This document shows, in pieces, positions 5,313 to 57,874 of a stretch of 64,000 nt of DNA (the first letter of the stretch is position 1; every line of letters begins with the position of its first letter). The stretch is taken from the NCBI RefSeq assembly GCF_023015765.1, contig NZ_JALKAL010000004.1:62001-126000 (forward strand), read 5' to 3'. The notes beneath the pieces are model-generated. The model was not told the origin of the DNA. It made no database searches and saw only the letters and a program-made list of their open reading frames with translations. Both the position numbers and the translations under genes were made by a program. The stretch is from Ornithinimicrobium sp. F0845. Lineage in GTDB: Bacteria > Actinomycetota > Actinomycetes > Actinomycetales > Dermatophilaceae.

Positions 5313-5340
5313 CGCCGGGAGCTCGCCTCCGCCGTCTCGA

Positions 5341-7260
<1,920 letters not shown>

Positions 7261-41245: not shown

Positions 41246-41306
41246 GAACGGGTCATGACAGCAATTGCCGTCTCCGACCGCGTTCCTCAGGAGGTGGGAG
41301 GGCACC

Positions 41307-42406: not shown

Positions 42407-42625
42407 TCAGTCCCGGTCCGGCGGCGCCTCGAGGTCGTCGAGCAGACCCTCCAGGTCGCTGGGCACCACCGCGGCGCGGGCGCGGGCGACGCGCTCCTGA
42501 TACTCCTGCGCGGTGAGCCGCCCCATGCCCTGGTGCCGCATCAGCGAGCGCACCACCTGCTCGCGCTCCCGCGTGCCGATCCTCAGCTCGGTCATCCGTC
42601 CTGCCCCTCTCGTCGTCCCACTCAC
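42407..42625 (-). CDS. DUF1707 (SHOCT-like) small protein
   Basis: This 72-residue protein has the DUF1707 pattern: ELRIGTREREQVVRSLMRHQG, then GRLTAQEYQERVARARAA. These domains occur in actinobacterial membrane-associated and stress proteins, of unknown function. Start at 42625 overlaps the ABC permease stop (ATGA); an internal ATG at 42595 with AGGACG is possible. It is the last gene of the RiPP operon. It has no TM segment, so any role is probably regulatory. Confidence 0.8.
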   Translation of the reverse strand: MSGTTRGAGRMTELRIGTREREQVVRSLMRHQGMGRLTAQEYQERVARARAAVVPSDLEGLLDDLEAPPDRD

Positions 42626-43509
42626 AGCACATCACGCCGGCGGAAGGCTCGCACGGCGAGGGTCAGCGCCACCACCGTCCACAGCAGGATGACCAGGACC
42701 GCGACCCATCCCTGCGTCACCGCGCCGACCCCGGGCAACCCCTGGCCACTCGTCACACCACTGGAGTCAAGTGCCGCGGCCAGCGATCCCACATTAGGCG
42801 TCAGCAGCACCGAGCGGACGGCATCGACCGCCGGGAGAGCCCCGGCCAGCCCACCGATGAGCAGCATCTCCACAGCCACCAGCCACGCGATGCCCACCAC
42901 CGAGGCGGTCATCAGGTTGCGCAGCAGTATGCCGAGGGCGAAGCCGAGCGTGGCGTAGCCCGTGGACATCAGCCACACCCCGCCCGCACCCGCTACCAGA
43001 TTCTCCGGCGCGATCGCCAGCGGGCCACCCTCGAGCATGGTCAGCGCGGCGCCGCTGACCAGGCCCAGCAGCACGGTCAGCACGGCCGTCACCGCGAGGA
43101 TGACCAGCAGCGCCGCGTAGCGGGAGAGCAGGAAGCTCACCCGGTGCGGGCACCTGGCCAGCAACGTGCCCAGGGTGCCGGAGCGATAGTCGGCGGCGGC
43201 CACGAGCGCCCCCAGCACCACGAAGACCGGGATGCCGTAGCCGGGGACCGACGCTGCGACATACGTCCCGGCCAGTTCCGGCGTGAGCGAGGTGACCATG
43301 TTGGCCGCCTGGGTGGGGTCCAGCTCGGCGCCCATCGCGCGGTAGACGGTGAACTGCACGACGTAGGCGAACACCAGGATCTGCAGGAGCCACACGCCGA
43401 CCGCGATGCGCACCCCGGGCCGCCGGCCGAGGGCGGACAGCTCTGCGCGGAGATAGCGCGCTGCGGGTGATCTCTCGGCGACCAGCGGGGGTGCGGTGAC
43501 GGCACTCAT
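42622..43509 (-). CDS. ABC-2 type transporter permease
   Basis: This 295-residue protein has six membrane segments, for example IAVGVWLLQILVFAYVVQFT and WVAVLVILLWTVVALTLAV, in the ABC-2 permease layout. It overlaps the upstream ATPase gene by 4 bases and the DUF1707 gene by 4. With the ATPase it makes a two-component exporter that could export the mature RiPP or give self-immunity. No substrate signature is visible. Confidence 0.9.
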   Translation of the reverse strand: MSAVTAPPLVAERSPAARYLRAELSALGRRPGVRIAVGVWLLQILVFAYVVQFTVYRAMGAELDPTQAANMVTSLTPELAGTYVAASVPGYGIPVFVVLGALVAAADYRSGTLGTLLARCPHRVSFLLSRYAALLVILAVTAVLTVLLGLVSGAALTMLEGGPLAIAPENLVAGAGGVWLMSTGYATLGFALGILLRNLMTASVVGIAWLVAVEMLLIGGLAGALPAVDAVRSVLLTPNVGSLAAALDSSGVTSGQGLPGVGAVTQGWVAVLVILLWTVVALTLAVRAFRRRDVL

Positions 43510-44447
43510 CGGACGGCTCCTCTCACGACGTGCTCGGGCCCGGCGTCCGGCTCACCGGTCAGGGACAGGTAGGCCGCCTCCAGGGACTCCCCCCGGGAGA
43601 TCGAGCCGACCTCGATCCCGGCCTCGACCAGCGCCCGGACGACGGGGGTGGTGCTGCCTTCGACCGACCGCGCGTGCACCGCCCCGCCACCGGCGTTGAC
43701 GTCGGTGACGCCCTCGGCCAGCTCCAGCACCCGCACGGCACTGTCCACGTCGGCGACCTCGATCACCAGGGTGGTGCCACCACCCCTCCCGCGGCGTAGC
43801 TCGGCCGGGGTCCCCTCCGACACGACCACGCCCTCGTGGAGGATGGCGACCCGGTCGCAGACCTGCTCGAGCTCGGCGAGCAGGTGGCTGGACAGGAGCA
43901 CGGTGCGCCCCTCGTCGCGCACCCGGGCGAGCAGCTCACGCACGTGCACCATGGCCTGCGGGTCCAACCCGTTGACGGGTTCGTCGAGGATGAGCAGGGG
44001 TGGGTCACCCAGCAGGGCCCCGGCGATGCCGAGACGCTGCTTCATGCCCAGGGAGTAGCCGGAGAAGCGGCTGTCCGCGCGCTCGCTCAACCCGACCGTC
44101 TCCAGGACCCGCTCGACGTCGGAGCGCGGATGACCGAGATACCGGGCCAGCAGCAGCAGGTTGTCGCGGCCGCTCAGGTGCGGATAGTAGGCGGGCGCCT
44201 CGATGAGCGACCCGACCAGCCGGCCGGTGGCGGTCCCGCCCGCGGGACGCCCCAACACGGTCGCGTGGCCCCCGCTCGGGGCGACCAGCCCCACGAGGAT
44301 GCGCATCAGGGTGGTCTTGCCGGCCCCGTTGCGACCCACCAGGCCGTAGACCTGCCCCGCGTCGATGGTCAGGTCGACGTCCCGCAGGGCGGTGACACCG
44401 CCCGGGTAGGCCTTGGACACGTCGGTGCACTGGACCGCGACAGTCAT
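43506..44447 (-). CDS. ABC transporter ATP-binding protein
   Basis: This 313-residue ATPase has Walker A (GRNGAGKTT), the signature YSLGMKQRLGIA, Walker B (LLILDEPVNGLD) and the H-loop (LLSSHLLAELEQ). It belongs to the CcmA/bacitracin-exporter branch. The ATG at 44447 has GGAGGACC upstream and overlaps the BAAT stop. With the permease at 42622-43509 it forms the export/immunity unit of the RiPP cluster. Confidence 0.93.
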   Translation of the reverse strand: MTVAVQCTDVSKAYPGGVTALRDVDLTIDAGQVYGLVGRNGAGKTTLMRILVGLVAPSGGHATVLGRPAGGTATGRLVGSLIEAPAYYPHLSGRDNLLLLARYLGHPRSDVERVLETVGLSERADSRFSGYSLGMKQRLGIAGALLGDPPLLILDEPVNGLDPQAMVHVRELLARVRDEGRTVLLSSHLLAELEQVCDRVAILHEGVVVSEGTPAELRRGRGGGTTLVIEVADVDSAVRVLELAEGVTDVNAGGGAVHARSVEGSTTPVVRALVEAGIEVGSISRGESLEAAYLSLTGEPDAGPEHVVRGAVR

Positions 44448-45820
44448 CGGGTCCTCCTTCCTGCACCGCCGGAGACGCCGGCGGGTGCTGGGTCGAGGTG
44501 TTCGGATGGATCGGTTGGGTCGCCGAAGCGCGTCCGCCAGCGGTCCAGGAAGTCCAGCTGCCGCACCCAGGCGTCGAGTGCGGCAGCGGCGTGCTGAGCG
44601 GGCTCCCCGCCGAAGTCGATGGCGAAGAAGGACGTCGGACGCATCCCTGTGGACGGCGGCAGCCCGGGGATCCCCATCGGGAAGGCCACGAAGTGCCCGA
44701 CCCCGGCATAGCGCACGTCCTCGGCGATCTCGGCGCGACCGTGCTCGTGCAGGCGCGCCAGAATCAGGTCGGCGAACTCCGCGGACGGCCAGAGCTGGTC
44801 CGCCTCGCCGCTGACCAGCAGGATGGGTCCGGTGCAGCGCTCCACCGGGATCCCGGCCCGGCGCACCCGGTCCGGGTGCCGCAGGTCCTCGCGGAAGGAG
44901 GCAACCTGCCGCATCGGCCGACGGCGCAGCATCCCCCAGGCGGTGCCGATCCAGTCGCGCACGCCGAGGGTCGAGGCGTTGAACGGCAGCGGGTCGGCGC
45001 CGCGCACCCAGGCGGCCTGGGTGAAGTCGGAGAAGTTGGCGGTCAGCCCCGGTTGCCGCAGTGCCGAGGGGGCCACCGCGATGACCGCACCGACCCTGGG
45101 GTTGTCGCTGGCCAGCTGCAGCGCCAGCTCGGCCCCCCGTGAGATCCCCACCACGGCGACCTCCCACCCGCTCACGTCGGGCCGGGCGAGCAGCCACGCG
45201 ACGGCGCCGTCGATGTCGTCGAGGTCGATCCCGACCAGCGTCGGCGGGCGGTCCTCGACCCCGAAGTAGGCCAGGGCGAGGACCACGTAGCCCTCGTCAG
45301 CCAGCAACGAGGCCGCGTGGTCGAGGCTGCCGCCGTCGGACCCGCCCAGCAGCAGCACGCCGGGATACGCCCGTTCGTCACGTGGCCGGTGCACCAACCC
45401 GACGAGTCCGGGACCGGCCACCGGCTCCTCCACGACCTCGCGACCGAAGTGCCGCTCGACCCGGTCCACCACGGCTACCTCTCCGGTCGCTGCGAGCTCG
45501 ACGGCGAACCGGTAGTGCAACGGGGTCGGACGCCGCTTGCGGAACAGCGCGGTCCCGTCCGCGGTCACCGACCACAGCGGCCCCGTGGGGTCGACACCGG
45601 CGTAGGAGCTCCCCGGCAGCGGGGCATCCCGTGCCAGGTCGACGATCCCCCGCTCGTCGGCGCGGAACCTCGAGCGGGAGGACCACTCCTGCAGCCCGCC
45701 GTCGGTCGTCGTCACGACCAGATCCGCCCGGGAGCGGGGCGGTAGCCCGTCGATCCGCACCGAGAGGTTGTCGTCGACCCTGGTCCGGCGCGGCGCCACC
45801 TGCAGGACGACGTCGCTCAC
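44444..45820 (-). CDS. Acyl-CoA thioesterase/BAAT-type alpha/beta hydrolase
   Basis: This 458-residue protein has an N-terminal BAAT-like beta domain (about 5-120) and a C-terminal alpha/beta-hydrolase domain with nucleophile Ser227 (VGISRGAEL), a later Asp (SGEADQLWPSAEF) and His (YAGVGHFVAFP). BAAT enzymes transfer or hydrolyse acyl groups. The start is a GTG at 45820 overlapping the upstream gene (GTGA). A BAAT-like hydrolase is an unusual member of a RiPP operon. It may acylate, deacylate or protect the product, or act in immunity. Function is unknown. Confidence 0.85.
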   Translation of the reverse strand: MSDVVLQVAPRRTRVDDNLSVRIDGLPPRSRADLVVTTTDGGLQEWSSRSRFRADERGIVDLARDAPLPGSSYAGVDPTGPLWSVTADGTALFRKRRPTPLHYRFAVELAATGEVAVVDRVERHFGREVVEEPVAGPGLVGLVHRPRDERAYPGVLLLGGSDGGSLDHAASLLADEGYVVLALAYFGVEDRPPTLVGIDLDDIDGAVAWLLARPDVSGWEVAVVGISRGAELALQLASDNPRVGAVIAVAPSALRQPGLTANFSDFTQAAWVRGADPLPFNASTLGVRDWIGTAWGMLRRRPMRQVASFREDLRHPDRVRRAGIPVERCTGPILLVSGEADQLWPSAEFADLILARLHEHGRAEIAEDVRYAGVGHFVAFPMGIPGLPPSTGMRPTSFFAIDFGGEPAQHAAAALDAWVRQLDFLDRWRTRFGDPTDPSEHLDPAPAGVSGGAGRRTR

Positions 45821-46965
45821 CACGGTACCTCCCCGGTGACCAGCAAGGTGACGCCGACCCACACGGTCCACAGCGTCACCACGCTCAGCAGGAGCACCAC
45901 GACGACGCCGTAGACCGGCACGACCCAACGGGCTGCGCCGTCGGCGACCGGGGCCGGGCGACGCCGCAGCACGGCCGTCCAGTAGGCCCGGCTCTCGTCC
46001 GCGACGTCCCAGACGCCCAGCGCATGACTCAGCGCCTTCTGCCCGTCCAGCCCCAGGACCGGGGCCAGGTTGACCAGCTGCGCCATCCCGCCCAGGACGA
46101 GCACCACCACGCACGTCTCCGCGACCGGGTGGCCGGCCGGCACCAGGAGCCAGGTCACGAAGACCGGCAGCAGCACGACCAGCCCGCCCAGGACCCCGGA
46201 GAGGGACACCACGACCCGCTGCCACCGGTGCGGCACCAGATAGATGTCCTCGACCTTGGTGTAGATCGTGATCAGCGGGAACCGCCAGGAGATGCCCATC
46301 TCGCGGCAGCGGCCGCCGTACCGGACGCAGGTCAGCGCGTGGGTGAACTCGTGCACGAGCAGGGAGAGCAGCACGACCACGACCCCCACGGCGACGGTGA
46401 CCGGAGCGCTGGCCCAGCTCGCGACATACCCCTCCCACAGCAGCGGCAAGCGCAGGCCGACGGTGAGCAGCATGAGCAGCACGAGTGCCGTCGCGACGGC
46501 CGCGGTCACCGGGTGCAGCAGCCACGCCGCCCGGCCCTGCAGCCAGCCGATCACCGGACCGGGGTCGATCAGCGGCACACGAACGCGCGTCACCCTGGGA
46601 GGCGTGACCCGGCCGGCCTGGTTCTGCTGGCGCAGCTGCTCGTATGCCGTGCGGCCGGCTTCCGCGTCCTCCCCCGGTGGCACGAGGAGCCGGCGGGCGT
46701 AGAGCAGTCCCATCAGCTGCTGCCAGGAGGCGTCGCCGAGGTCCTTGCCGAACGCGCCCCGGTAGTCCCGCTCGACGTCGCCGAAGGTGCGGGTGCCGTC
46801 CAGCCGGGTCAGCACGAAGGCCTCCCGGGGCGAGACCTGGAAGTAGCCGTCCGAGCGCACGTCGCGCACGACGTGCACCGTCTGGCCCAGCCTGCGGACC
46901 GGCGGCCCGACGGTGACCTCCGCGCCGAGGACCGGCGTGGGGTGCGGAGCCAGGGTGGAGGTCAT
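45817..46965 (-). CDS. RiPP-cluster M50-like membrane metalloprotease with N-terminal PqqD/RRE-like domain
   Basis: This 382-residue protein begins with a soluble PqqD/RRE-like region (about 20-100, SPREAFVLTRLDGTRTFGDV), then several membrane helices with HEFTH at 205-209 and NLAPVLGLDGQKAL later, together the zinc motifs of site-2-type M50 proteases. Proteins of this build are common in RiPP operons and are suspected leader peptidases or membrane maturases. It overlaps the upstream LanB C-terminal gene (TGATG) and the BAAT gene downstream. The RRE-like N-terminus suggests it binds the precursor leader. Confidence 0.82.
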   Translation of the reverse strand: MTSTLAPHPTPVLGAEVTVGPPVRRLGQTVHVVRDVRSDGYFQVSPREAFVLTRLDGTRTFGDVERDYRGAFGKDLGDASWQQLMGLLYARRLLVPPGEDAEAGRTAYEQLRQQNQAGRVTPPRVTRVRVPLIDPGPVIGWLQGRAAWLLHPVTAAVATALVLLMLLTVGLRLPLLWEGYVASWASAPVTVAVGVVVVLLSLLVHEFTHALTCVRYGGRCREMGISWRFPLITIYTKVEDIYLVPHRWQRVVVSLSGVLGGLVVLLPVFVTWLLVPAGHPVAETCVVVLVLGGMAQLVNLAPVLGLDGQKALSHALGVWDVADESRAYWTAVLRRRPAPVADGAARWVVPVYGVVVVLLLSVVTLWTVWVGVTLLVTGEVPW

Positions 46966-48044
46966 CAGGCCACGTCCGAGCGGAGGCTCTCCAGGTAGCG
47001 GGCCAGCAGGTGGGAGAGGTAGACCTCCTCGACGATGCTGACCCCGAGCCGGTTGTTCGTCATGTGGATGAACGGCACCAGCATCGTGCGGAGGGTGACC
47101 TCCGGGTCGGTCGTGACCACCCGGTCGCCCTCCAGCACGCGCTCGGGGAAGATCAGGTCCCCGGCCCGTGTCGCCGCCAGGACCTGGTCCCGCACCCGCG
47201 CCATGTGCACGGCCCAGTCGCCGAGGAACCCGGGCAGGCTCTCGGGCCGGCCCGCCTCGATCGCGCCACGCACGGCCGTGAGCCGCTCCGCCAGCGGGCC
47301 GGCCATCTCCTGGTAGTTGGTCTCGAACCCGTCCCGGGTGGGTGAGTCCTTGGCCAGCATGGTGGTCTCCCACATCGTCTGGTAACCCTCGTGGAAGCGG
47401 GTCCCGTCCTCGGGCCGCGGGAGGAAGGTCAGGGTGCTGACCGCCATCAGCTGCAGGGCCAGCCCGAACATCACGTTGCGCACGTGCAGGTTGGTGGTGG
47501 CCACCAGCCGCAGCACGGTGTCGCTGGACTGCTCGAAGTGCTGCTCGGCGAGCCGCACCCCGTGGGGACCGCCGTACTTGACGTACTCCGGCTCGTAGGG
47601 GTACTCGGCGACGGTGTTGCTCTCCTGCATCGGCATCGCGCCGTCGGCGCCGTACTTCTCCTCCCAGTCGGCCTCGGAGTACTCCATGAGGAACATGTCC
47701 TTGTACAGCGTGCCGAGCACCGTCGGGTCGCTCTTGTAGAGCGACGGCCGGGTCTTGATGAAGGTCTCCGCGGCGTGCTGTGCGCGGGCCAGGACGACCG
47801 CGCGGTCGTCGGGGTCGCGGGGGTGCAGGCGGAGCCGGATGTGCGGCCCCTCCATCCAGTAGCGGATGAAGAACCAGCCGTCGATCAGGCCCTCCTCGCG
47901 CAGGGTGTCGACCAGTGGCTGGACGCACTCCTCCAGCAGCGGGTTGGAGTTGCTGCTGTAGAAGATGTGCAGCGCGACCCAGTCCTGCGCCACGGGTGGC
48001 TCCGGGAGTGTCGCCGGGGGCAGGGGGGCGGTTGACGTGGTCAT
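46965..48044 (-). CDS. Thiopeptide-type bacteriocin biosynthesis domain protein (split LanB elimination part)
   Basis: This 359-residue protein matches the SpaB_C/thiopeptide-type domain: VALHIFYSSNSNPLLEECV, FFIRYWMEGPHIRLRLHPRD near the N-terminus, and GWFF. In split LanB systems this part removes glutamate from glutamylated Ser/Thr to give dehydroalanine/dehydrobutyrine. Related proteins of similar size instead form the pyridine ring of thiopeptides ([4+2] cyclase). Only one such protein is present here, so the elimination role is preferred. Start by ATGA overlap with the LanB N-terminal gene. Confidence 0.85.
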   Translation of the reverse strand: MTTSTAPLPPATLPEPPVAQDWVALHIFYSSNSNPLLEECVQPLVDTLREEGLIDGWFFIRYWMEGPHIRLRLHPRDPDDRAVVLARAQHAAETFIKTRPSLYKSDPTVLGTLYKDMFLMEYSEADWEEKYGADGAMPMQESNTVAEYPYEPEYVKYGGPHGVRLAEQHFEQSSDTVLRLVATTNLHVRNVMFGLALQLMAVSTLTFLPRPEDGTRFHEGYQTMWETTMLAKDSPTRDGFETNYQEMAGPLAERLTAVRGAIEAGRPESLPGFLGDWAVHMARVRDQVLAATRAGDLIFPERVLEGDRVVTTDPEVTLRTMLVPFIHMTNNRLGVSIVEEVYLSHLLARYLESLRSDVA

Positions 48045-50872
48045 GAGCGGGACCCTTCCGTGATGATCAGCTCGAAGGTCTGTTCTGAGACGTAGGAGCC
48101 GTGCTCGGTGGTCAGCCACAGGGCGTCCGGCCCCGGGAGCATCTCGTTGAACACGATCCGGGCGGTGTCCTGGCGCAGCATGTCGTCGAGCAGCTGCAGG
48201 CAGGACTCACTGGTGAAGTCGACATACTGAGGCTTGCCGCGGCTGGCGCTCATCGTGGCACCGTCGGTGCCGGGCCTGGTCTGTTCGGGGCTGTCCGGCT
48301 GGTCGTCCGGCTCCTCGGCGGCGCCGGCCGACAGGGTGGCGAAGACGTAGCGCGGCAGCCCGTGCTCGGCGCGGAAGCGCTGCCACTCCAGGTACCACCG
48401 GGCGGCCGAGTCGAAGTCCCGGCGGTGCGGCAGCTTGGCGGGGTTGGCCTTCCAGGTCTCGCGGACCAGGACGACGTCGCCGTAGCGCACCCGGGGATGT
48501 GAGCTGATCACCTGCTCGCCCAGCGGGGCGTCGGTCCCGCTCCACAGGTCGAGCTGGGCCATCTTGTTGAGCGAGAAGAGGAGCAGCACGCGCTGGATGT
48601 CGGACAGCGCGAACGGCAGCAGGAAACCGAGGTAGACCGGGATGACGCGCTGTCCGAGCCGCGGACAGAACAGCACCAGCTCCTCGGTGTCCGGGTCGTG
48701 GCGCACCTCCAGGTCGGAGACGTAGATCCGGTGTGCCTCCGACCGGCTCGTCACCTCGCCGGGGCAGACGATCTCATAGGGCGTCACGGCCGGGTGCAGG
48801 TTGAGGTTCGTGGTGTCCACCCCACCGGTGATCTCGGCGAACACCGCGCCGTCGGGCTGCTGCTCCAGCAGGTGCGCCCGCAGGTCCTCGACCAGACCCG
48901 AGCCCGGCTGCTCGTCCTGCGCCAGGGCGTGCAGGAAGCGGGAGAACATCAGGGACAGACCGGTGTAGGACTTGTTCAGGACGACGCCGGGCCGCTCCCC
49001 GCCGCTGAACTGGGCGAAGAAGCTGCGTGGGTCGGGGTCACCGGACCCGACGGGCAGCTCGGCGACGATGTCGTCGAAGAACTCGTCGGTCAGCACCAGC
49101 TCCTGGTGCACGTCCTCGAGGGCGGAGAAGGCCCGCCGCATGCCCCGGATCAGCGCCAGCCGCGCACGGTGCAGGGCGTCGACCTCCTCCAGGTCCAGCC
49201 AGTTGGGCGGCGGCGCGGGGAGACCGTCGTCGTCGGTGAGGGGCGGTCCGCTCGTGGTCTTCATGAACTCGTCGAAGATGTCGAGGTGGAAGTCCTGGAC
49301 CAGCTTGACCAGGTCGTAACAGACCCCGCCACGACCGAACCGCACCGTGAAGAACCCGTTGAGCAGGTAGCGCTGCGGCGCGAGCGCGTCGAACACCGGC
49401 AGGATGCTCGCGACCCGGCCGAGCGCCGGGGCCAGGTCCTGCTCCCACCGGGAGCGGGCGGCCAGGACCTCGTGGCCCTCGGGGGTGGCGTCCTCGTAGA
49501 TGAGGGTCTGCGGCACCGAACCGTCCGGGGCGCCCAGCGAGGTCATCAGCTCCTCGAGCTCGGCGCGGGTGTCCCGGAGCAGGTCGCGGCGATCGTGCGC
49601 GCAGGCGCCGGCAAACCGCTCCACGAGTCCGCTGACCCGGTCGAGTCGTCCGGCGACGTCGTCGGCCCACGGGCGGCCGATCCCCCGCAGTCCGGTCGTG
49701 AAGGCACGGATCGGGTCGTCGGCGTGCAGGTCGACCTGCAGCTGTGGTGTCGTGACCAGGTCCAGGCGGACCACGGAGGTGAGGAACCGGTCGATGTCCT
49801 CCCGGGAGGCGCCCTCGAGCCGCTCGTGCATCGCCTCCGCCACCTGGCCCAGCGTGGTGCCCGGTGCGGCGGTGAGCACCTCGATCAGCTGGGCCAGCAG
49901 CTGGCCGGCCGCCAGGTAGAACACGTTCTCCTGCATCGAGTCCAGGTTGACGGCACCGGCGTCCGCCCGGCTGGTGACCCGGCGGCGGCGCAGGTAGCGC
50001 AGCCGCTCTGAGCGGACCTCCCACCCGGTCACCAGCTCCAGCGGCAGGTCCTGGCTGTGGTCCGGGTGCGCCCGCAGGGCCTCCACCACCCGCGGGACGA
50101 CCGCCACGTTGAGCCGGGTGCTGCCCACGACGCGGCTCAGGTCACCGGAGCCGGCGATGAGCTCCTGGGTCTCCTCCGACAGCCGGCCGTGGGCCACGGT
50201 CGTCAGGGTGCTGAACGGGCTGGTCTTGCAGGCGGTGCGGTAGACGTAGTGCAGCAGGGAGCGTGCCTGCTTGCGGGACCTCTTGGTCTCCCGTCCGGAG
50301 GAGACGCTGTGGGCGTAGTCCCCCAGCCGCGCGTCCAGCAGCGGCGAGGCCAGCGTGAGGCCCTGCCGGAACACCTCGGTCTCGGCCAGGTCGAGCAGGT
50401 GCTGACGGGCCTCCGTGACGTCCTCGGCCAGCTGGGCGTCACCGCGAGACACGGCCTCGTGCAGGTCGGCGCAGTCGGTGAGCCACCGTCCCACGGCCGC
50501 CTGCAGCTCGGCGCCGTGCACCGCCACCGCCTCGAGGGCGGCCTCCGGGTCGCGCGGGAGCCGCTGGTTGTGCACGTCGCGACGCAGCTTCAGCAGCGCC
50601 TGGCGGTTCGTGTGGTCGGGGTTGCCCCCGATGGCCGCCTCCAGCAGCAACCCGATCCGCTCCCCGGCGGCGGCGAGCCGGGACTCGGTGGCCAGGACCT
50701 CCCGGGCCCAGGCCTGGGCGCGCGGGCTGGCGAGCCCGGACACCACGTCATACGGCAGCCCACCGGACCGGGAGACGAAGTGCGGGTTGAAGGTGCAGTC
50801 TCGGGCGGGGGCGGACGGGTCACCGCGGCGCTGCGCGGGCCGGGTCTCTGGTCGGACATCCAGCTCGGTCAT
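48041..50872 (-). CDS. Lantibiotic dehydratase N-terminal (glutamylation) protein
   Basis: This 943-residue protein has the LanB dehydratase core. KTSPFST at 216-222 is the classic signature. The rest matches the tRNA-dependent Ser/Thr glutamylation domain. It does not end in the SpaB_C domain, which is encoded by the next gene, so this is a split LanB as in goadsporin and thiopeptide clusters. It uses glutamyl-tRNA to activate core Ser/Thr. The ATG at 50872 overlaps the SagB-type dehydrogenase stop (ATGA). With cores of up to 18 Ser and 4 Thr the load on this enzyme would be exceptional. Confidence 0.9.
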   Translation of the reverse strand: MTELDVRPETRPAQRRGDPSAPARDCTFNPHFVSRSGGLPYDVVSGLASPRAQAWAREVLATESRLAAAGERIGLLLEAAIGGNPDHTNRQALLKLRRDVHNQRLPRDPEAALEAVAVHGAELQAAVGRWLTDCADLHEAVSRGDAQLAEDVTEARQHLLDLAETEVFRQGLTLASPLLDARLGDYAHSVSSGRETKRSRKQARSLLHYVYRTACKTSPFSTLTTVAHGRLSEETQELIAGSGDLSRVVGSTRLNVAVVPRVVEALRAHPDHSQDLPLELVTGWEVRSERLRYLRRRRVTSRADAGAVNLDSMQENVFYLAAGQLLAQLIEVLTAAPGTTLGQVAEAMHERLEGASREDIDRFLTSVVRLDLVTTPQLQVDLHADDPIRAFTTGLRGIGRPWADDVAGRLDRVSGLVERFAGACAHDRRDLLRDTRAELEELMTSLGAPDGSVPQTLIYEDATPEGHEVLAARSRWEQDLAPALGRVASILPVFDALAPQRYLLNGFFTVRFGRGGVCYDLVKLVQDFHLDIFDEFMKTTSGPPLTDDDGLPAPPPNWLDLEEVDALHRARLALIRGMRRAFSALEDVHQELVLTDEFFDDIVAELPVGSGDPDPRSFFAQFSGGERPGVVLNKSYTGLSLMFSRFLHALAQDEQPGSGLVEDLRAHLLEQQPDGAVFAEITGGVDTTNLNLHPAVTPYEIVCPGEVTSRSEAHRIYVSDLEVRHDPDTEELVLFCPRLGQRVIPVYLGFLLPFALSDIQRVLLLFSLNKMAQLDLWSGTDAPLGEQVISSHPRVRYGDVVLVRETWKANPAKLPHRRDFDSAARWYLEWQRFRAEHGLPRYVFATLSAGAAEEPDDQPDSPEQTRPGTDGATMSASRGKPQYVDFTSESCLQLLDDMLRQDTARIVFNEMLPGPDALWLTTEHGSYVSEQTFELIITEGSRS

Positions 50873-52485
50873 CGGGCGTTCTCCTCTGCCAGGCGCAGGT
50901 GCAGCTCGGCACCCACGGTGTCTTCGTGACCGACCATCAGGATGAGCATCGGCCACTCCGCCGTGGCGTCGTCGGCCTCCAAGGAGGCGGTGCCGAACGC
51001 CTCCCCGTAGGAGGTGTTGTCAAAGCCGAGGGCGGCCCCACAGCCGAGGCCGCGGGCGGCGGCGGCCAGGTAGCCGTACTGCGTCGCGGCGCCGATCGCG
51101 GCGTTCTGCAGCCGCAGGCCCCGGGGCCCGTAGTGGTCGATGATCTGGCCGGGCCGGGCTGTCAGCACGATGACCGCGGCGATCCGCGCCATGTCGTAGT
51201 TGCGCAGGAAGTAGTTGCCCTGCAGGAAGAGCTCCAGGCCCGCCTCGAGGGTCTGCGCCAGCTCCCCGGTGGAGCGGTCGTAGCGGTAGATCCCCTGGGC
51301 GACGTCGGCGACGTTGGTCGCGCAGACCCAGGTGCGGACCAGGCCGTCGGGCAGCTCACCGGTGACGCCGAAACCGTCGTTGGCCGCGTTGACCGCGTCC
51401 AGGACGTTGCGCAGGTCCCCCTGGCTGATCGGCGGGTCCGCGGTGAAGCGCCCGAAGCTGCTGCGCCGCCGCAGCAGGGCCTCGCGCAGCGGCATCTCGC
51501 CCAGGGGCTGTGCGGGCAGCACCACCCGCGGAGCGGAGTCAGCGACCCCGCGACCCGGGTCCTTAGGAGGTGGTGGTGGCACCTGCCAGGGGTTGTCGGC
51601 AGCGGCGGCGGCCAGGATCTCGGACTGGATGTCGTCGATCACCTCGAAGCTGCGTGGCGCCCGTGACTTCTCGTGCGCCTCGTGCCGCGTGGTCCGGCTG
51701 TGGCGTCCGCTGCCCCCCGTGGTGCCGCCCATCGGCACCGGCACGACGCTGACCGTGCTCTCGGCGTAGCCGTCCAGGCCCAGCAGGTCGTTCAGCTCGT
51801 GCTCGTCGAACCACAGGTTCGCACGCAGCGGCAGACCCTGGTTGCGGCACCACAGCTCCCAGGTCGCCAGGACGGTGCCGATGTCCATCGCGGTCACGTG
51901 CGGGGAGAAGCTGTTGTACTTGAACGCGTTCTGCCAGAACTTGATGGACAGCAGCAGGTAGCTGCCGGCGCCCGTGGCGTGCGGTCCCAGCGAGTCCTGG
52001 ATCCGCCCGACGTAGTTGCCGGTGGCCAGTCGGCTGAGCGAGTGCCGGGCGCTGTTCCAGTTGTAGATGCCCGGGACCAGTCCCTGCTCGCCGCTGGTCA
52101 CCAGGTAGATTTCGAGCGGATAGAGGCCGCCGCCGGAGGCCGTCCCCCGCGACCAGACCGCCCGGTCGTACCACGGCATCGCGGGCACGTCGTCGTTGCG
52201 GTGGACCGCCGCACGGCGGCCCGACAGGCCGTAGGAGTGCCAGAGCATGCTGCCGAGCGAGGCCAGGTCGAAGTCGCCGCTCCGCTCCCGTCCCGGGCAG
52301 CCGAGCGCATAGCCGAGTGTGCGGTCCACGGCCGGGGCGTGCCGCGGCAGCGCGATCGACTGGGTGCCGGGATACACCTTGTAGCGGCGCGGTTGGTCGT
52401 CCCAGGGCACGTCATACTCCAACGGGGCCATCGGGACGCGGCCACGGCGCAGGATGTCGTGCATGTAGGTGGCGGTTGCGGTCAT
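50869..52485 (-). CDS. SagB-type azoline dehydrogenase, two nitroreductase domains
   Basis: This 538-residue flavoprotein has two SagB/ThcOx-like nitroreductase domains (about 90-260 and 330-530), joined by a proline-rich linker (WQVPPPPPKDPGRG). These FMN enzymes oxidise thiazolines/oxazolines to thiazoles/oxazoles. The first half has TASGGGLYPLEIYLVTSGE and the second LRNVLDAVNAANDGFGV. I use the ATG at 52485 with GAAGGAG; a TGATG-coupled ATG at 52536 is an alternative. Duplicated SagB halves occur in several actinobacterial LAP clusters. Its presence indicates aromatic azoles in the product. Confidence 0.9.
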   Translation of the reverse strand: MTATATYMHDILRRGRVPMAPLEYDVPWDDQPRRYKVYPGTQSIALPRHAPAVDRTLGYALGCPGRERSGDFDLASLGSMLWHSYGLSGRRAAVHRNDDVPAMPWYDRAVWSRGTASGGGLYPLEIYLVTSGEQGLVPGIYNWNSARHSLSRLATGNYVGRIQDSLGPHATGAGSYLLLSIKFWQNAFKYNSFSPHVTAMDIGTVLATWELWCRNQGLPLRANLWFDEHELNDLLGLDGYAESTVSVVPVPMGGTTGGSGRHSRTTRHEAHEKSRAPRSFEVIDDIQSEILAAAAADNPWQVPPPPPKDPGRGVADSAPRVVLPAQPLGEMPLREALLRRRSSFGRFTADPPISQGDLRNVLDAVNAANDGFGVTGELPDGLVRTWVCATNVADVAQGIYRYDRSTGELAQTLEAGLELFLQGNYFLRNYDMARIAAVIVLTARPGQIIDHYGPRGLRLQNAAIGAATQYGYLAAAARGLGCGAALGFDNTSYGEAFGTASLEADDATAEWPMLILMVGHEDTVGAELHLRLAEENAR

Positions 52486-52535
52486 CGTGGACTCCTTCTC
52501 CAGGGTCGCGGTGCGCTGCGGTGCTGGCGGGTGCA

Positions 52536-54452
52536 TCACGGGAACGGGTGGGGGTGCATGTTGAGGTCGTCGGCGGTGAGCTCGGTGTCCCGCCAGCCCG
52601 CGGCCACCGGGGCGACCCGCAGGCGGCGCATCGACAGGGCCCGCTGCATGGTCCAGCCGAAGTCGATCGGGATGAGCCCGGGCACGATGGTGGAGACGGT
52701 CGTCAGGCCGACCGCGCGCTGCTCGGGTGAGGTCTGGTCAGCCACCAGCACGTCGTGCCCGCGAGCGGTGATGGCGTCGACGACAGCCTGCAGGTCGTCG
52801 GTGAGGTCACCGGTGCGGGGACGCTCACGCTCCCACCCGGCATACAGGTCCTCGAGGGGTTGGGGCGCGCGGTCCTGCTTCAGCAGGAAGTCCGCGTGCC
52901 GGGCCATCTCCGGGACGCCGTAGAGCAGGGCGTGGTGCTTGAGCTCCTGGACGACGAGGTAGTCCTCCTGCATCTCCCGGACCAGGTCGATGTGCTCGGC
53001 GACCCGCTCGGGGAAGCTGGGGACGTAGGAGGCGATCTCACACAGGGCCGCGCGGACGGCGTCCTCGGGGTCCAGCCCTGCACCGGCGGCGAAGGAGAGG
53101 GTGCCGAGTCCGCCGTCGCGGCGGACGGCGACCCCCGTCACGCAGGGCACCGGCAGGTCTATCCGGTTGTCGAACATCCGCACGTCGTAGCCCATGAGGG
53201 AGAGGCGGTCGATCATCATCCGGATCTGCGGTGACCGGCAGGTCGAGGTGTCGATCTCCGGCAACGGGGCCTTGCCGTACCAGGCGTTGAGGAAGGCGTC
53301 GCGCTCGAGCAGCTCCAGCAGCCCGTAGAGGGTGGCCTCCTCGCGGCTGCCGCCGGTGGCGCACCCGTTGGAGCACTCCTGGATGAAGTTGGTCGCCGGG
53401 TCGTTGATCAGGTAGTAGACGAAGGCGTGCGGCACCAGCACCTGGCGGTCGTCGCGCAGGCTGTGCGCCCAGACCCACGGGATCGGCAGGTCGTCGCGGA
53501 ACCGGGTGAACCGGGGCCCGATGAGCTCGTAGAAGACGTCGGGGTAGAGCTCCACGGCGCGCGGGTCGAGGGCGTGGTCCCGGACGTTGTCGTAGGTGTC
53601 CACGACGGCCGGGCGGATCCGCCTCTCCCGGAGCCCCGAGTGGCGCTCCAGCCCCTCGAGTATGCCGAGGATCTGGCTGTCGGCGAAGTTGTCGGCGTGC
53701 CCGCTCCAGAAGAACTCGTGCAGATGGTAGTCGCCGCGGATCCGCGTGTAGCCGGTGACGGGCGCGGTGGTGGTCGAGTCGTAGGCCCGGCCGGCGACCG
53801 TGCCGAGCATCCCGCAGATCGGGTTGGCGTAGGTGTCGGGGTCGAGGGGGTAGTCGTGGATCCTCCGCACGCGGGTCGCGTCCGGGGTCGGCTTGGGCTG
53901 GGGGGTCAGCACCAGGGCCGCGGCCTGGGCGGTGTCGTCCTCCCGCAGGTCGCACAGCGGACAGTCCGCGTCGGCGGTCAGCGGGTAGCGCGTCACCGCC
54001 CCGACGTCGAGCCGCACGTGGAAGACCTGGGTGAGGCCGGCCTCAGTGGTGGGCCACTCGGCACCCGCCAGGCTCTCCAGGGTCGACTCCACCAGCGACC
54101 GGCCGAACCCGGCCAGGAACGGGGCCGCACCGGCCGCCTCCATGGGGTCACCGAGCTCCAGGGCATTGCGCTCGTCCTCGCCGCGCAGCAGCTGCCAGCG
54201 CCGTTCCAGGCAGTGGAAGCACCCGCCGGTGCCGGGCACCGGTGCGGTGAAGGGGACCAGGAGCACCGAGCTGGCCCGGACGAGCGCCACGACGTCGGGG
54301 GTCTGTGCCCCAAGGCGCGCGCCCCGCTCCCGTCCCACGTCGGGTGGGAGCACGTTGACGGTGCCCAGCGTGTCGAAACTGACGCGTCGGCCGCCGATCA
54401 GGGCGCCGGTCGCCTCCGCGGGTGCGGCCTCGGAGGTGGCTATGGCGGACAT
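52536..54452 (-). CDS. YcaO cyclodehydratase of azole-forming RiPP
   Basis: This 638-residue protein has an N-terminal leader-binding/ThiF-like part with a zinc site (C78, C81, C164, C167: CFHC and CPLC), then a YcaO domain with the ATP-binding motifs (SNGCATG, LLELLERDAF). The protein ends in HPHPFP, the PxPxP C-terminus typical of azoline-forming YcaO enzymes. It uses ATP to cyclise Cys/Ser/Thr side chains onto the backbone. Start at ATG 54452 with GAAGGGA; a longer His/Ser/Pro-rich extension is not credible. It lies downstream of the four precursors behind a hairpin. Confidence 0.92.
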   Translation of the reverse strand: MSAIATSEAAPAEATGALIGGRRVSFDTLGTVNVLPPDVGRERGARLGAQTPDVVALVRASSVLLVPFTAPVPGTGGCFHCLERRWQLLRGEDERNALELGDPMEAAGAAPFLAGFGRSLVESTLESLAGAEWPTTEAGLTQVFHVRLDVGAVTRYPLTADADCPLCDLREDDTAQAAALVLTPQPKPTPDATRVRRIHDYPLDPDTYANPICGMLGTVAGRAYDSTTTAPVTGYTRIRGDYHLHEFFWSGHADNFADSQILGILEGLERHSGLRERRIRPAVVDTYDNVRDHALDPRAVELYPDVFYELIGPRFTRFRDDLPIPWVWAHSLRDDRQVLVPHAFVYYLINDPATNFIQECSNGCATGGSREEATLYGLLELLERDAFLNAWYGKAPLPEIDTSTCRSPQIRMMIDRLSLMGYDVRMFDNRIDLPVPCVTGVAVRRDGGLGTLSFAAGAGLDPEDAVRAALCEIASYVPSFPERVAEHIDLVREMQEDYLVVQELKHHALLYGVPEMARHADFLLKQDRAPQPLEDLYAGWERERPRTGDLTDDLQAVVDAITARGHDVLVADQTSPEQRAVGLTTVSTIVPGLIPIDFGWTMQRALSMRRLRVAPVAAGWRDTELTADDLNMHPHPFP

Positions 54453-54572
54453 GTGGTTCCCTTCGCTGGTCTGAACGGGTGGTGAGGTGCTCTGTGGGTG
54501 CGGTGCGCTGGTGGGAGCTGCGGTGGTGGAGAGGTGATGGGGAGTGCGGTGGTGGGAGCTGTGGTGGTGCGA

Positions 54573-54606
54573 CTCCCCGGCGGTGTTCCCGGACACCGCC
54601 GGGGAG
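54573..54606 (-). terminator. Hairpin between precursors and YcaO gene
   Basis: A perfect 14-bp stem (54573-54586 with 54593-54606, arms CTCCCCGGCGGTGT) with a 6-base loop lies 17 bases after the last precursor stop. RiPP precursors are commonly followed by such attenuators so that peptide is made in large excess over the enzymes. No T-run follows. Confidence 0.75.
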
Positions 54607-54623: not shown

Positions 54624-54821
54624 TCAAGCGCAGCTGCTGGTCGAGCCGCAGCTGCACGACGTGCTCGTCGTGCTGCCGCAGCTGGAGCTGGACGTGGAGC
54701 AGCAGCTGGAGGTGCTGCACGAACTCCACACCGCCATGTCCTCCGCGACCTCGGTGAGCTCAAGGACCTCGAAGGTCTCGCACTCCAGGGCCGCGATCTC
54801 GGTGGTCAGCTGGGTGTTCAT
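54624..54821 (-). CDS. RiPP precursor peptide 1 (Ser/Thr/Cys-rich core)
   Basis: A 65-residue peptide with an acidic leader (1 to about 30) sharing ETFEVLELTEVAEDM with two sister genes, then a core starting VWSSCSTSSCC that ends TSSCA. Nearly every core residue is Ser, Thr or Cys. A Cys in the leader (position 14, ALECETF) is unique among the four. The ATG at 54821 has GAGGAGGAG upstream. Substrate of the YcaO/LanB/SagB set. Confidence 0.9.
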   Translation of the reverse strand: MNTQLTTEIAALECETFEVLELTEVAEDMAVWSSCSTSSCCSTSSSSCGSTTSTSCSCGSTSSCA

Positions 54822-54861
54822 CGGTACTCCTCCTCTCGGGACGGTCGGTGAACAGGGCTGC

Positions 54862-55071
54862 TCACGCGCAGCTGCTCGTGGAGCCGCAGGAGCAGCTCGT
54901 GCACCCGCAGCAGCTCGACGTGGAGCAGCTGCAGCAGGACGTCGTGGAGCAGGCACAGGACGAGGTGCTGGTGGCACCGTCCATGTCCTGCGAGGCGTCG
55001 GCGATGTCGATGACCTCGAAGGTCTCGACCTCGAGCTCCTTGAGCTCACGCCCCAGGCTGTTGATGGACAT
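54862..55071 (-). CDS. RiPP precursor peptide 2 (diverged)
   Basis: This 69-residue peptide has the leader segment VETFEVIDIADASQDM, related to the other three but with a different end. Its core begins DGATSTSSCACST and is the richest in Cys (11 Cys), ending STSSCA. The aromatic Trp at the start of the other cores is absent. AAGGAG precedes the ATG at 55071. This copy may make a different product. Confidence 0.9.
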   Translation of the reverse strand: MSINSLGRELKELEVETFEVIDIADASQDMDGATSTSSCACSTTSCCSCSTSSCCGCTSCSCGSTSSCA

Positions 55072-55095
55072 ACTGGTTCTCCTTCACATATGTGG

Positions 55096-55151
55096 CCCGG
55101 CGTGGTCCACGCCGGGGTCAAGCGCAGAACGGACCCGGGTCGGGGACCCGG
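55096..55151. repeat. Two hairpins between precursors 2 and 3
   Basis: Hairpin 55096-55116 (8-bp stem CCCGGCGT, GGTCC loop) and hairpin 55135-55151 (7-bp stem CCGGGTC, GGG loop) lie in the 90-base gap between precursor 3 and precursor 2. They may set relative precursor levels or protect processed messages. Confidence 0.5.
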
Positions 55152-55161
55152 ATCCGTGACA

Positions 55162-55347
55162 TCAGGCGCAGCTCGCGCAGCTGCAGGAGCAGGTGCTGCT
55201 GCAGCTGGAGCTGGACGTGGAACAGCAGCTCGAGGTGCTGCACGAGCTCCAGGCCGCCATGTCTTCGGCAACCTCGGCGAGCTCGAGGACCTCGAAGGTC
55301 TCGGCCTCCAGCCGCGCCAGCTCCTCACTCGGGAAACGCGTGGTCAT
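55162..55347 (-). CDS. RiPP precursor peptide 3
   Basis: A 61-residue peptide: leader with LEAETFEVLELAEVAEDM and a core from AWSSCSTSSCC to SCSCASCA. Core and leader are close to precursors 1 and 4, with a shorter C-terminus. CGGAGACAGC precedes the ATG at 55347. It ends 90 bases before precursor 2. Confidence 0.9.
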   Translation of the reverse strand: MTTRFPSEELARLEAETFEVLELAEVAEDMAAWSSCSTSSCCSTSSSSCSSTCSCSCASCA

Positions 55348-55377
55348 GCTGTCTCCGTTTCTCTTCGTGCGGACGGT

Positions 55378-55575
55378 TTAGGCGCAGCTGCTGGTCGAGG
55401 CACAGCTGCAGGAGCAGCTGGACGTGCTGCCGCAGCTGGAACTGGACGTGGAGCAGCAGCTCGAGGTGGAGCAGGAGCTCCAGGCCGCCATGTCCTCGGC
55501 AACCTCCGTGAGTTCGAGGACCTCGAAGGTCTCGGCCTCCAACGACGCGATCTCGGTAGTCAGATAGGGGTCCAT
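55378..55575 (-). CDS. RiPP precursor peptide 4
   Basis: A 65-residue peptide with leader MDPYLTTEIASLEAETFEVL and on to EDM, then a 34-residue core (W32-A65) in which 30 residues are Ser (18), Cys (8) or Thr (4). The remaining residues are Trp, Gly and two Ala. GGAGGTG precedes the ATG at 55575, 7 bases after the ThiF-like gene, so it is translated in the same operon. Predicted sites allow up to 8 thiazoles plus many oxazoles or dehydroalanines. Confidence 0.92.
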   Translation of the reverse strand: MDPYLTTEIASLEAETFEVLELTEVAEDMAAWSSCSTSSCCSTSSSSCGSTSSCSCSCASTSSCA

Positions 55576-55582
55576 GGTGTGT

Positions 55583-57784
55583 TCACCTCCTCCCGGGGTG
55601 GGTCGGTCCGTCGTCAGACGCCAGAGGAGCGTCCTCACCAGAGGGTCCGGAGGCTGTGGTCAAGAGGACCCGAGCGGTCCGGATGCCGCCCTGTGCAAGA
55701 TCGGGAAGGCCGGTGTCCACCACCAGGACGTCGGTGCCAGCGCCGAGCGCGGCCATCATCGACGTCACCGGCTGGCGGTCGGCCGTGGCGGGGCGACTGC
55801 GGCCCGACAGCGGCAGCCCCCGTGGGTCGAGGTCGGCCAACGGACCCACCTCCGTGGTCGCCGGACCGTCGGTCTGGACCCGGCCCACCAGCGACACGAG
55901 CGCGTCGATCACGGCCAGTTCGAGCGACGCCCCGGTGGCCAGGGCGACGACCGGCTCACCGTCGCGCTCGGCGAAGGCGATGACCGTGCCGCCACAGCCG
56001 GGCAGGGACACGTCGACCAGGACGGGTTCCAGACCGAGCGTGCCGCAGGTGTCGACGAGGAAGCGCAGCACCGTGCCCGGCTCGGCCTCCTGCACCTCAA
56101 GGGTGTCCAGCGGAGAGCCGTCGCGCAGGGCCGTGAGGACCGCCCGGAAGGTGATGGCCGAGAAGAGGCCGGCGATGGCTGCGTCCGCGGGGCTGGCTCC
56201 GGCGCCGGCGCCCACCGTGCTGCGCAGCACCCACTGGTCGTCGTTGGCCGCGGAGAACGGGTAGGCGGCGGCGACCGGGATCCGGCGCCGGTCCCCCGAC
56301 ACCAGGCTGGTCGCCCACACGCCCGCGCCGCCAGCGTCCTTCCCACCGCCCGCGTCGTTCGCCGCGCCCGTGCCGGCCGCGTCCTTCCCACGGCCGGGCA
56401 CCACCCCGCTCCACACGTCGAGCGCGCTGGCGGGGACATCCACCTGCTCGAGGAGGTCGCGAGCCGTCTCGGGACCCCAGGTGTCGACATACTGCAGAGC
56501 GGCCTCGCAGAGCGCACGGAAGCGGGCCTGGAGCGGGGTGCGCGTGTGATAGCCGGTGATGGTCCGCCGGGCGGGGGCCGAGCCGTCCCGGCCGGCGAGG
56601 CCACCGACCTCGACGCGCCCCACCTTGAGCGGGGACTGGTCGATCTCGAGGTCCGTGAACTGGCGGAAGACCCCGGTGTGGTGGCGCACCAGGTCGAGGT
56701 AGCCGTCAGCCTGCTCGTGCAGCGCCTGCGACTCCACCTCGGCCTCCGGGTCCAGGAAGACGTCCAGCTCCGCGCGTAGCTCCTCGCCGGGCGCCGACTC
56801 GACGCGGCCGGCGGCCCGCGGGTCGCTGGGGTGTCCCAGCAACGGCTCCTTCACGATGTCGAGGGTCTCGACGTTCTGCACGACGACGGCGTCCCGGGTC
56901 TCGGGGTCGAGGCACCCGGTCAGCAGGCGGAAGACCTCGAAGCCGATCAGCGTGCCCAGCATCGAGGCGTGCTGGGCGACCGGAACGGGGCGGGCGGCCG
57001 AGGGCGCTCCGGCGAGGCGGCGCCAGAAGTCGGCGCTCTCGTCTGCGTCCAGGCCGGCCGCGAGGCGGGCGATGAGGGAGTCCACGCCGGCAGCGCCCCC
57101 GGTGTCCAGGAGGGGACCGACGAAGACGCGGCCCCCGACGGTGACTGCGGGGATGACGGGGACGCCCGCCTCCGCCGCCACCCGCGCCAGGCTCCGCACC
57201 CCGTCCAGGCCGATGGCATCGCCGAGGGCGACGACCACGTCTGCGGAGAGGTCCCCGGCCTGCGTCGGCAGGTGGTCGGTGAGCGTCGCGGACTCCAGCC
57301 CGTTGTCGGCCAGGATGCGCGCGGTCGACTCGGCGAGCGGCCCGGACCCCAGGATCAGCACCGTGGCGGCACGGAACTGCTCGAAGCGCCGCACGGGGGC
57401 GTCGACGTAGTGCCGGATGAACTCGATCTGGTGGGCGAACGGGTGCTCCAGCACGGCCTCGCCCAGCTCCTCGGGGACGCTGTCCCGGGCGAAGTCTCGC
57501 TCCAGCAGCACCTTGACCAGCGAGGTCAGCATCTGCTGCTGCGCCTCCGGCAGCGAGCTGCGGAGGTCTCCGACGGTGAGCGAGCCGTCCAGGTGCGGGG
57601 CCAGGACGGACAGCCACCGGTAGATGCTGCTGCCCCGCATGACGAAGGCGTCGTCCGCGTGCCGGATGAAGACGCCCTGGCCGGTGTCGGCATACAGGAC
57701 GTCCCGGCGCAGCAGCGGCCGGACGTCGTCCAGCACGCCCGTGGTGTCCTCGTCCTGGATGGTCTGCGACGTGTGCGTCGACAT
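55583..57784 (-). CDS. ThiF-like/leader-binding cyclodehydratase partner (F- or Ocin-ThiF-type) with long C-terminal domain
   Basis: This 733-residue protein has an N-terminal winged-helix leader-recognition region (LLRRDVLYADTGQGVFIRHADD, SIYRWLSVLAPHLDGSLT), then a ThiF-like fold (ATVLILGSGPLAESTARILADNGL). The C-terminal third (TPLQARFRALCEAALQYVDTWG through GGTVIAFAERDGEPVVAL) resembles a degenerate YcaO-like domain and contains a Gly/Asp-rich low-complexity part near 475-490 (AGTGAANDAGGGKDAG). Such proteins deliver the leader to the YcaO enzyme. Start at ATG 57784 with GGAAGGA. First gene of the operon, directly before precursor 4. Confidence 0.85.
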   Translation of the reverse strand: MSTHTSQTIQDEDTTGVLDDVRPLLRRDVLYADTGQGVFIRHADDAFVMRGSSIYRWLSVLAPHLDGSLTVGDLRSSLPEAQQQMLTSLVKVLLERDFARDSVPEELGEAVLEHPFAHQIEFIRHYVDAPVRRFEQFRAATVLILGSGPLAESTARILADNGLESATLTDHLPTQAGDLSADVVVALGDAIGLDGVRSLARVAAEAGVPVIPAVTVGGRVFVGPLLDTGGAAGVDSLIARLAAGLDADESADFWRRLAGAPSAARPVPVAQHASMLGTLIGFEVFRLLTGCLDPETRDAVVVQNVETLDIVKEPLLGHPSDPRAAGRVESAPGEELRAELDVFLDPEAEVESQALHEQADGYLDLVRHHTGVFRQFTDLEIDQSPLKVGRVEVGGLAGRDGSAPARRTITGYHTRTPLQARFRALCEAALQYVDTWGPETARDLLEQVDVPASALDVWSGVVPGRGKDAAGTGAANDAGGGKDAGGAGVWATSLVSGDRRRIPVAAAYPFSAANDDQWVLRSTVGAGAGASPADAAIAGLFSAITFRAVLTALRDGSPLDTLEVQEAEPGTVLRFLVDTCGTLGLEPVLVDVSLPGCGGTVIAFAERDGEPVVALATGASLELAVIDALVSLVGRVQTDGPATTEVGPLADLDPRGLPLSGRSRPATADRQPVTSMMAALGAGTDVLVVDTGLPDLAQGGIRTARVLLTTASGPSGEDAPLASDDGPTHPGRR

Positions 57785-57802
57785 GGCGTCCTTCCCAAGA
57801 GC

Positions 57803-57874
57803 CGATCCCGTGGGACCCACCTGATTGGTCGGCCCGTGGGATCGACAGTAGGAACGGCGCGTGGCCCCGGGCAA
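57803..57874 (-). promoter_or_regulatory. Promoter and repeat operator of the RiPP operon
   Basis: On the minus strand TTGCCC (57874-57869) and TACTGT (57850-57845) are spaced by 18 bases, a plausible promoter for the RiPP operon. Direct repeats CCCGTGGGA at 57807 and 57833 and an inverted repeat CGATCCC (57803) / GGGATCG (57838) overlap and follow the predicted start. They look like a repressor site. No cognate regulator is identified. Confidence 0.55.

Follow-up and report, generated by a model that had tools for sequence, protein, structure and literature searches.

The 64,000-nucleotide stretch analyzed here (the window) carries a gene cluster on its minus strand. From position 57790 down to 42622, the order is F, four precursor genes, YcaO, SagB, LanB-N, LanB-C, an M50 protease, a BAAT-like gene, an ABC ATPase, and a permease. 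The features are given below; the coordinates of the precursor open reading frames (ORFs) include the stop codons, and L040 is the corresponding locus of a same-genus relative.

55583..57790, minus strand: F protein with an N-terminal leader-binding RRE, a ThiF-like middle, and a weak YcaO-like C-terminus (start codon chosen)
55378-55575, minus strand: precursor P1, 65 aa (core dN 0 and dS 0.85 versus L040; no match to TIGR03892)
55162-55347, minus strand: precursor P2, 61 aa (TIGR03892, 20.0 bits, under the cutoff of 25)
54862-55071, minus strand: precursor P3, 69 aa (TIGR03892, 39.4 bits, over the cutoff of 25)
54624-54821, minus strand: precursor P4, 65 aa (86% identity to P1; no match to TIGR03892)
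52536..54452, minus strand: fused E1-like/YcaO azoline-forming cyclodehydratase, ending in PHPFP (PxPxP)
50869..52539, minus strand: SagB-type dehydrogenase, a double nitroreductase (azoline to azole; TIGR03605, 126 bits, and PF00881, 66.5 bits, two stretches each)
48041..50872, minus strand: LanB-N, predicted tRNA-Glu-dependent Ser/Thr glutamylation (PF04738, 124 bits)
46965..48044, minus strand: LanB-C, predicted glutamate elimination (PF14028, 170 bits)
45817..46965, minus strand: M50 intramembrane metalloprotease (HEFTH), candidate leader peptidase
44444..45760, minus strand: BAAT/acyl-CoA-thioesterase-like alpha/beta hydrolase or acyltransferase (PF08840, 98 bits; PF04775, 65 bits; start arbitrary)
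43506..44447, minus strand: ABC transporter ATPase (TIGR03740, 144 bits, in a shorter stretch, 43506-44219)
42622..43509, minus strand: ABC-2 permease (PF12679, 33 bits)
41265..42365, plus strand: TrmB/LuxR-type regulator, possible cluster regulator (PF00196, 26 bits, over the cutoff; PF01978, 23 bits, under it)

All four precursors have the leader motif ETFEV, and GGAG is present no more than 30 bases upstream of each ORF (GGAGG for P1 and P4). With the core boundary placed 14 residues past the FE of the leader, the cores are 28 to 36 residues long and 26 to 32 of these residues are Ser, Thr, or Cys (S/T/C; 30/33, 26/28, 32/36, and 30/33 in the four ORFs), forming contiguous S/T/C sequence without Ile. 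The preliminary description had reported four consecutive small genes with a shared leader and nearly pure S/T/C cores, all of which we recovered on the minus strand, except that the cores span 28 to 36 and not 29 to 38 residues. Similarly, the ORF that it had numbered as precursor 4 (55378-55575, our P1) has the reported 18 Ser, 8 Cys, and 4 Thr residues, in a core of 33 rather than 34 residues. The 8 Cys of this core are potential thiazoles; 7 Ser/Thr residues immediately precede a Cys, and 15 are located elsewhere. When ORFs read from stop to stop and no shorter than 50 aa were screened for a tail in which at least 80% of the last 28 residues were S/T/C, with at least 5 Cys, exactly 4 of the 692 ORFs in the window were returned, and these were the four precursors. 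No ORF with such a tail was found in 20 Markov-resampled windows.

The YcaO, split LanB, and SagB genes that had been noted beside the precursors were matched by domain profiles. In a longer frame (52536-54596), the YcaO protein scored 308.7 bits against TIGR03604, 69.9 bits against TIGR03882, and 269 bits against PF02624; its PxPxP C-terminus is a mark of azoline-forming YcaO proteins. The F protein, also read in a longer frame (55583-57874), scored 80 bits against TIGR03693 and 39 bits against PF02624, and its N-terminus matched the PbtF structure 8t19 (E = 6.3e-10). The YcaO-like tail of F does not have the PxPxP end of a full YcaO and may be a degenerate copy. The relatives of LanB-N in the PDB were 6ec7 (“lantibiotic dehydratase domain protein,” 101.7 bits) and 9jhq (“goadsporin biosynthetic protein,” 47.4 bits). 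The M50 protease scored 103.8 bits against the daptide_HExxH model NF041824, below the cutoff of 300, and 32.8 bits against PF02163; in daptide clusters, an RRE is described as being fused to an intramembrane protease (PMC10036551). The likeness to the daptide protease model supports, short of proof, a putative role of the M50 protease in leader removal. In the ten cluster genes scanned, we found no LanC-type cyclase, no DUF4135 LanM-type dehydratase, and no acetyltransferase (GodH) over the cutoff; one of the ten is the BAAT-like hydrolase/acyltransferase gene.

To describe the spread of the family, we built a profile from the four window precursors and searched 394 genomes of the class. The profile matched 19 genomes at an E value of ≤0.01 and 14 at ≤1e-4, and a LanB-C gene was matched at ≤1e-80 in 19 of the 394. 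All 14 genomes with a precursor at ≤1e-4 fall within the 19 LanB-C genomes, the remaining 5 of which had no precursor match at that threshold, while the five weaker precursor matches were in genomes with no LanB-C match. A scan with a LanB-C alignment of one genome per species (84,980 species) yielded 346 candidate stretches, of which 312 were relatives, and the locus counts given here cover the best 80 of these 312, for which the locus-finding patterns included HMTNNRL. The best 80 come from Streptomyces, Micromonospora, Nocardiopsis, Modestobacter, Kribbella, Jiangella, Salinispora, Actinomadura, Cellulomonas, and others; the closest named relative of the window is a Modestobacter. The order F-YcaO-SagB-LanB-N-LanB-C-M50 was found in 68 of the 80 loci, and the other 12, all of them short stretches, miss one to three of the six genes. 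Using a precursor filter that required a leader-like motif, two or more Cys, and a tail of at least 50% S/T/C, we detected S/T/C precursors in 67 of the 80 loci; of the 13 loci without a precursor under this filter, 9 are short and 4 are full length (L110, L117, L123, and L124).

The position of the precursors divides the family. They lie upstream of LanB-C, as in the window, in 31 of the 80 loci (type A) and downstream in 36 (type B), with none in 13. In a tree of LanB-C proteins, one fully supported branch has on one side all 33 type A rows (including the window and L040) plus 4 unassigned rows and on the other side all 36 type B rows plus 9 unassigned rows. A homologue of the regulator is located ~2 kb from a precursor in nine of the 80 loci, all nine of type B. 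Two YcaO matches were present in 35 of the 80 loci; first copies end in PxPxP in 73 of 74 cases and second copies in 34 of 35. The BAAT-like gene lies inside the cluster in the window, in L040, and in just 3 of the 80 loci (L053, L054, and L062), and we therefore rejected it as a family-wide enzyme. When the neighbors were compared across 26 sequences (24 of the 80 loci, the window, and L040) for a resistance or tailoring gene in common, the only group in at least four sequences that had a window member was a frame antisense to the precursors; further groups were common to 4 to 13 other loci and had no member in the window. In one genome of the window's family (G850; L046 and L047), F, YcaO, SagB, and LanB-N are found at one place, and LanB-C, M50, and ABC lie more than 1 Mb away together with two precursors and a second YcaO; in G767 (L045), a two-YcaO set lies in one piece.

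The kind of LanB-C present bears on the architecture of the product, as thiopeptides require an extra LanB-C-like enzyme, the pyridine synthase. The pyridine synthase model NF045556 matched 10 places in 8 of the 394 genomes, and we took 8 of these 10 regions for comparison. All eight contain two LanB-C genes, and in all eight a profile of the family's LanB-C ranked the partner enzyme (95 to 123 bits) above the gene at the NF045556 place (25 to 89 bits). An H-N-R motif near the C-terminus, whose residues are catalytic in LanB-type enzymes, was present, over whole frames, in 7 of the 8 partners and in none of the 8 pyridine synthases; it was also present in all 17 aligned family proteins. The exact sequence HMTNNRL was found in 74 of the 80 loci, a frequency that is partly built in because the locus-finding patterns include it. 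In a midpoint-rooted tree, which carried a long-branch warning, the LanB-C proteins formed three separate groups. Against NF045556, the window LanB-C scored 99.7 bits, with the cutoff at 325. Thus, the window LanB-C looks like the elimination type and not like a pyridine synthase, the partner role being assigned from position and motif; the roles compared are those of TbtB, TbtC, and GodG.

Formally, the cluster could still encode a true thiopeptide, with LanB-C acting as the pyridine synthase to link two dehydroalanines, in which case elimination would fall to another protein or to the long LanB-N. The window LanB-C in fact matches TbtD, a pyridine synthase, better than any other solved structure (26 bits; with the profile, 45 bits for TbtD and 32 bits for the lantibiotic dehydratase 5ehk), and LanB-N is 943 aa long, compared with 861 aa for 6ec7 and 867 aa for 9jhq. 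Moreover, the NCBIfam leader models TIGR03892 and NF033400, both named “thiazolylpeptide-type bacteriocin,” already name part of the family. Of the window precursors, only P3 exceeds the TIGR03892 cutoff, with P1, P2, and P4 under the cutoffs, and 12 of 16 family precursors match each model at an E value of ≤0.01; public annotation gives this label to four precursors of a similar cluster found on a plasmid of Actinomyces oris, with cores such as TCSSSSSSSSSCSSTSSCATA. However, a single LanB-C gene was found in all 80 loci by tblastn and profile (19 of the loci being shorter than 20 kb), and PF14028 matched just once in the genome of the window at an E value of ≤0.001, at the cluster LanB-C itself, whereas all eight thiopeptide regions have two LanB-C genes. 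LanB-N gave no PF14028 match, the partner-enzyme motif is the one kept in the family, and NF045556 was matched at ≤1e-60 in just 1 of the 19 class genomes with the family LanB-C (G547), on other contigs. That genome, a Nocardiopsis (L060/L147/L150), carries the cluster and two separate pyridine synthase regions. We regard a thiopeptide as an unlikely product and its macrocycle as improbable, and the thiopeptide suggested by the name of the leader models is not supported by the enzymes. Since the LanB-C is single and resembles the elimination type, no [4+2] step is predicted, and the product should be linear.

LanB enzymes and many Ser, Thr, and Cys residues would also suit a lanthipeptide-like product, in which the Cys residues, instead of forming azoles, would make thioether links to dehydro residues. 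We think this very improbable, given that the ten genes scanned did not include a LanC-type cyclase and that F, YcaO, and SagB occur together in 68 of the 80 related loci, the remainder being short stretches.

The precursors might instead be remnants of a cluster that has decayed or fallen silent in this strain. P4, which resembles a copy of P1, had no partner in L040, where three precursors were found, and YcaO at an E value of ≤1e-60 is missing from all but one of the 21 further genomes listed for the genus, both of which could be expected of such remnants. We used L040, whose YcaO is 91% identical to that of the window, as the reference for a coding test. In P1, P2, and P3, core dN ranged from 0 to 0.046 and core dS from 0.68 to 0.92; changes at codon positions 1, 2, and 3 numbered 0, 0, and 11 in P1, 2, 1, and 9 in P2, and 0, 0, and 11 in P3, leaving one amino acid change in the P2 core and none in those of P1 and P3. 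Because core dN is far below dS in P1 to P3, the window precursors are real genes. The enzyme frames that were read contain no internal stop, and in the single same-genus relative the gene order from F to the BAAT-like gene is preserved. Relic status is accordingly a reading to which we give very little credence. Finally, a metal-binding Cys-rich protein was set aside on the basis of the conserved leader and the YcaO/LanB neighbors.

Constraint on the cores extends across the family. Among the 131 precursors of the 67 loci, 124 cores were at least 80% S/T/C and 19 were 100% S/T/C, with a median of 0.95, these composition figures being conditioned on the precursor filter. The core CSSSTSTSSCSSCSTSSCCSCTSSSCSSTS (30/30 S/T/C) is identical in 12 loci, although the corresponding DNA differs at 17 third-codon positions, with all first and second positions invariant. 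Ser sites with both AGY and TCN codons were observed in five of nine identical-core sets (4/15, 2/9, 1/15, 5/10, and 3/14 sites) and in none of the other four. Because a switch between AGY and TCN needs two base changes and passes through Thr or Cys if made in single steps, serine itself seems to be kept at these sites. Core patterns are also conserved at each position from one species to another, which speaks for a defined sequence and against a loosely defined polymer.

We consider it highly probable that the cluster directs synthesis of a goadsporin-like RiPP from four co-encoded precursors with nearly pure Ser/Thr/Cys cores, and the best reading of the product is a linear azole/dehydroalanine peptide; the YcaO, split LanB, and SagB genes lend support to the azole/dehydroalanine peptide predicted in the preliminary description. 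The genes, their families, synteny, core conservation, and the kind of LanB-C resembled were computed, and onto these we place a pathway of which we infer every chemical step, as well as how many residues are modified, where the leader is cleaved, and what the product does. The RRE of the F protein would bind the ETFEV leader, the fused YcaO enzyme would convert Cys and perhaps some Ser/Thr residues to azolines, and SagB would oxidize the azolines to azoles. LanB-N would then glutamylate Ser/Thr residues, from which LanB-C would eliminate glutamate to give dehydroalanine or dehydrobutyrine; after the leader had been cut off by the M50 protease, the product, predicted to be linear in the absence of a [4+2] step, would be exported by the ABC transporter. 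Since the enzyme kinds are those of goadsporin, the goadsporin reaction order is the best guess. In that system, GodD and GodE are described as installing the azoles, whereas GodF is described as glutamylating the peptide only when it bears azoles and, together with a GodG-type enzyme, as producing dehydroalanine (Dha) by elimination (PMC5303826). A bolder proposal, which we put forward tentatively and think more doubtful than not, is that azoles and dehydroamino acids follow one another almost without a break in the product, leaving scarcely an unmodified residue over 21 to 36 positions, and that the S/T/C order is a conserved code.

Goadsporin is the closest point of comparison. It shares with the window cluster a YcaO protein, a SagB-type dehydrogenase, and a LanB split in two, with no [4+2] enzyme in the accounts cited (PMC5303826, PMC4603692), and it combines azoles and Dha in one linear peptide, as predicted for the window; the goadsporin protein 9jhq is also related to the window LanB-N. 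In contrast, goadsporin has one precursor rather than four with cores of 28 to 36 nearly pure S/T/C residues, the F protein and M50 protease are features of the window, and the goadsporin enzymes are reported to use spaced X1-S/T/C-X2 sites (PMC5303826), whereas the S/T/C residues of the window cores are contiguous. The earlier remark that the cores are denser in modifiable residues than goadsporin was borne out, with 26 to 32 S/T/C residues in 28 to 36 positions compared with six azoles and two Dha residues in a 19-residue core (PMC5303826).

The coryneazolisins, predicted in 2015 in Corynebacterium and uncharacterized at that time, are alike by description, having stretches of only C/S/T, YcaO proteins, LanB-like dehydratases, and no [4+2] enzyme in that account (PMC4603692). 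They differ in having two YcaO (D) proteins, a discrete one alongside a fusion, where the window has one full YcaO and the weak YcaO-like tail of F, and in having a core of 10 C/S/T residues, Ile, and 5 to 7 C/S/T residues (PMC4603692), where the window cores have no Ile. Dehydrazoles such as carnazolamide similarly unite dehydration and azoles in one hypermodified peptide, with azole-dependent dehydration, but in their case the dehydratase is described as a LanM-type DUF4135 enzyme and the leader as nitrile-hydratase-like (PMC10676384), neither of which was seen in the window cluster. Thiopeptides of the thiomuracin type share the F protein, YcaO, SagB-like dehydrogenase, LanB-N, and a LanB-C resembling the partner of the pyridine synthase; they differ in the pyridine synthase itself, which we did not find here. 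We found no isolated product of the family in the open-access literature, a search that may miss descriptions in subscription journals. The cluster is not the singular find that the preliminary description might have suggested, because precursors are present in 67 of the 80 relatives fetched (from 312 in one scan), NCBI models exist, and coryneazolisins were predicted in 2015. We regard the family as a widespread, uncharacterized variant of goadsporin-like azole/Dha peptides and not as a new class.

If this reading is right, many actinobacteria, including Streptomyces and Micromonospora, have in common an undescribed, heavily modified type of peptide, with cores of up to 30/30 modifiable residues and a protein sequence identical across a dozen loci despite DNA variation. 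Such cores would test the limit of YcaO and LanB modification where nearly every residue is a substrate, as well as how the enzymes choose between a ring and a double bond, and the database label of thiazolylpeptide bacteriocin would be in doubt, with the enzymes pointing to a linear product. Under the bolder and more doubtful proposal of an almost fully modified core, the wide actinobacterial spread and the tightly kept sequences would suit a common signal or developmental factor better than an antibiotic particular to one strain, although the groups shared among other loci may include a resistance gene.

S/T/C precursors are also carried on plasmids. On a Streptomyces plasmid (L152, ~5217-5468), a “hypothetical protein” is annotated antisense to a clear S/T/C precursor that is missing from the listed genes, the PLSDB gene table being incomplete. 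The Actinomyces oris plasmid, which is from the human mouth, carries its relative of the cluster (L153, 12216-13287) with four precursors and two YcaO genes, and two of the four precursors contain runs of nine serines.
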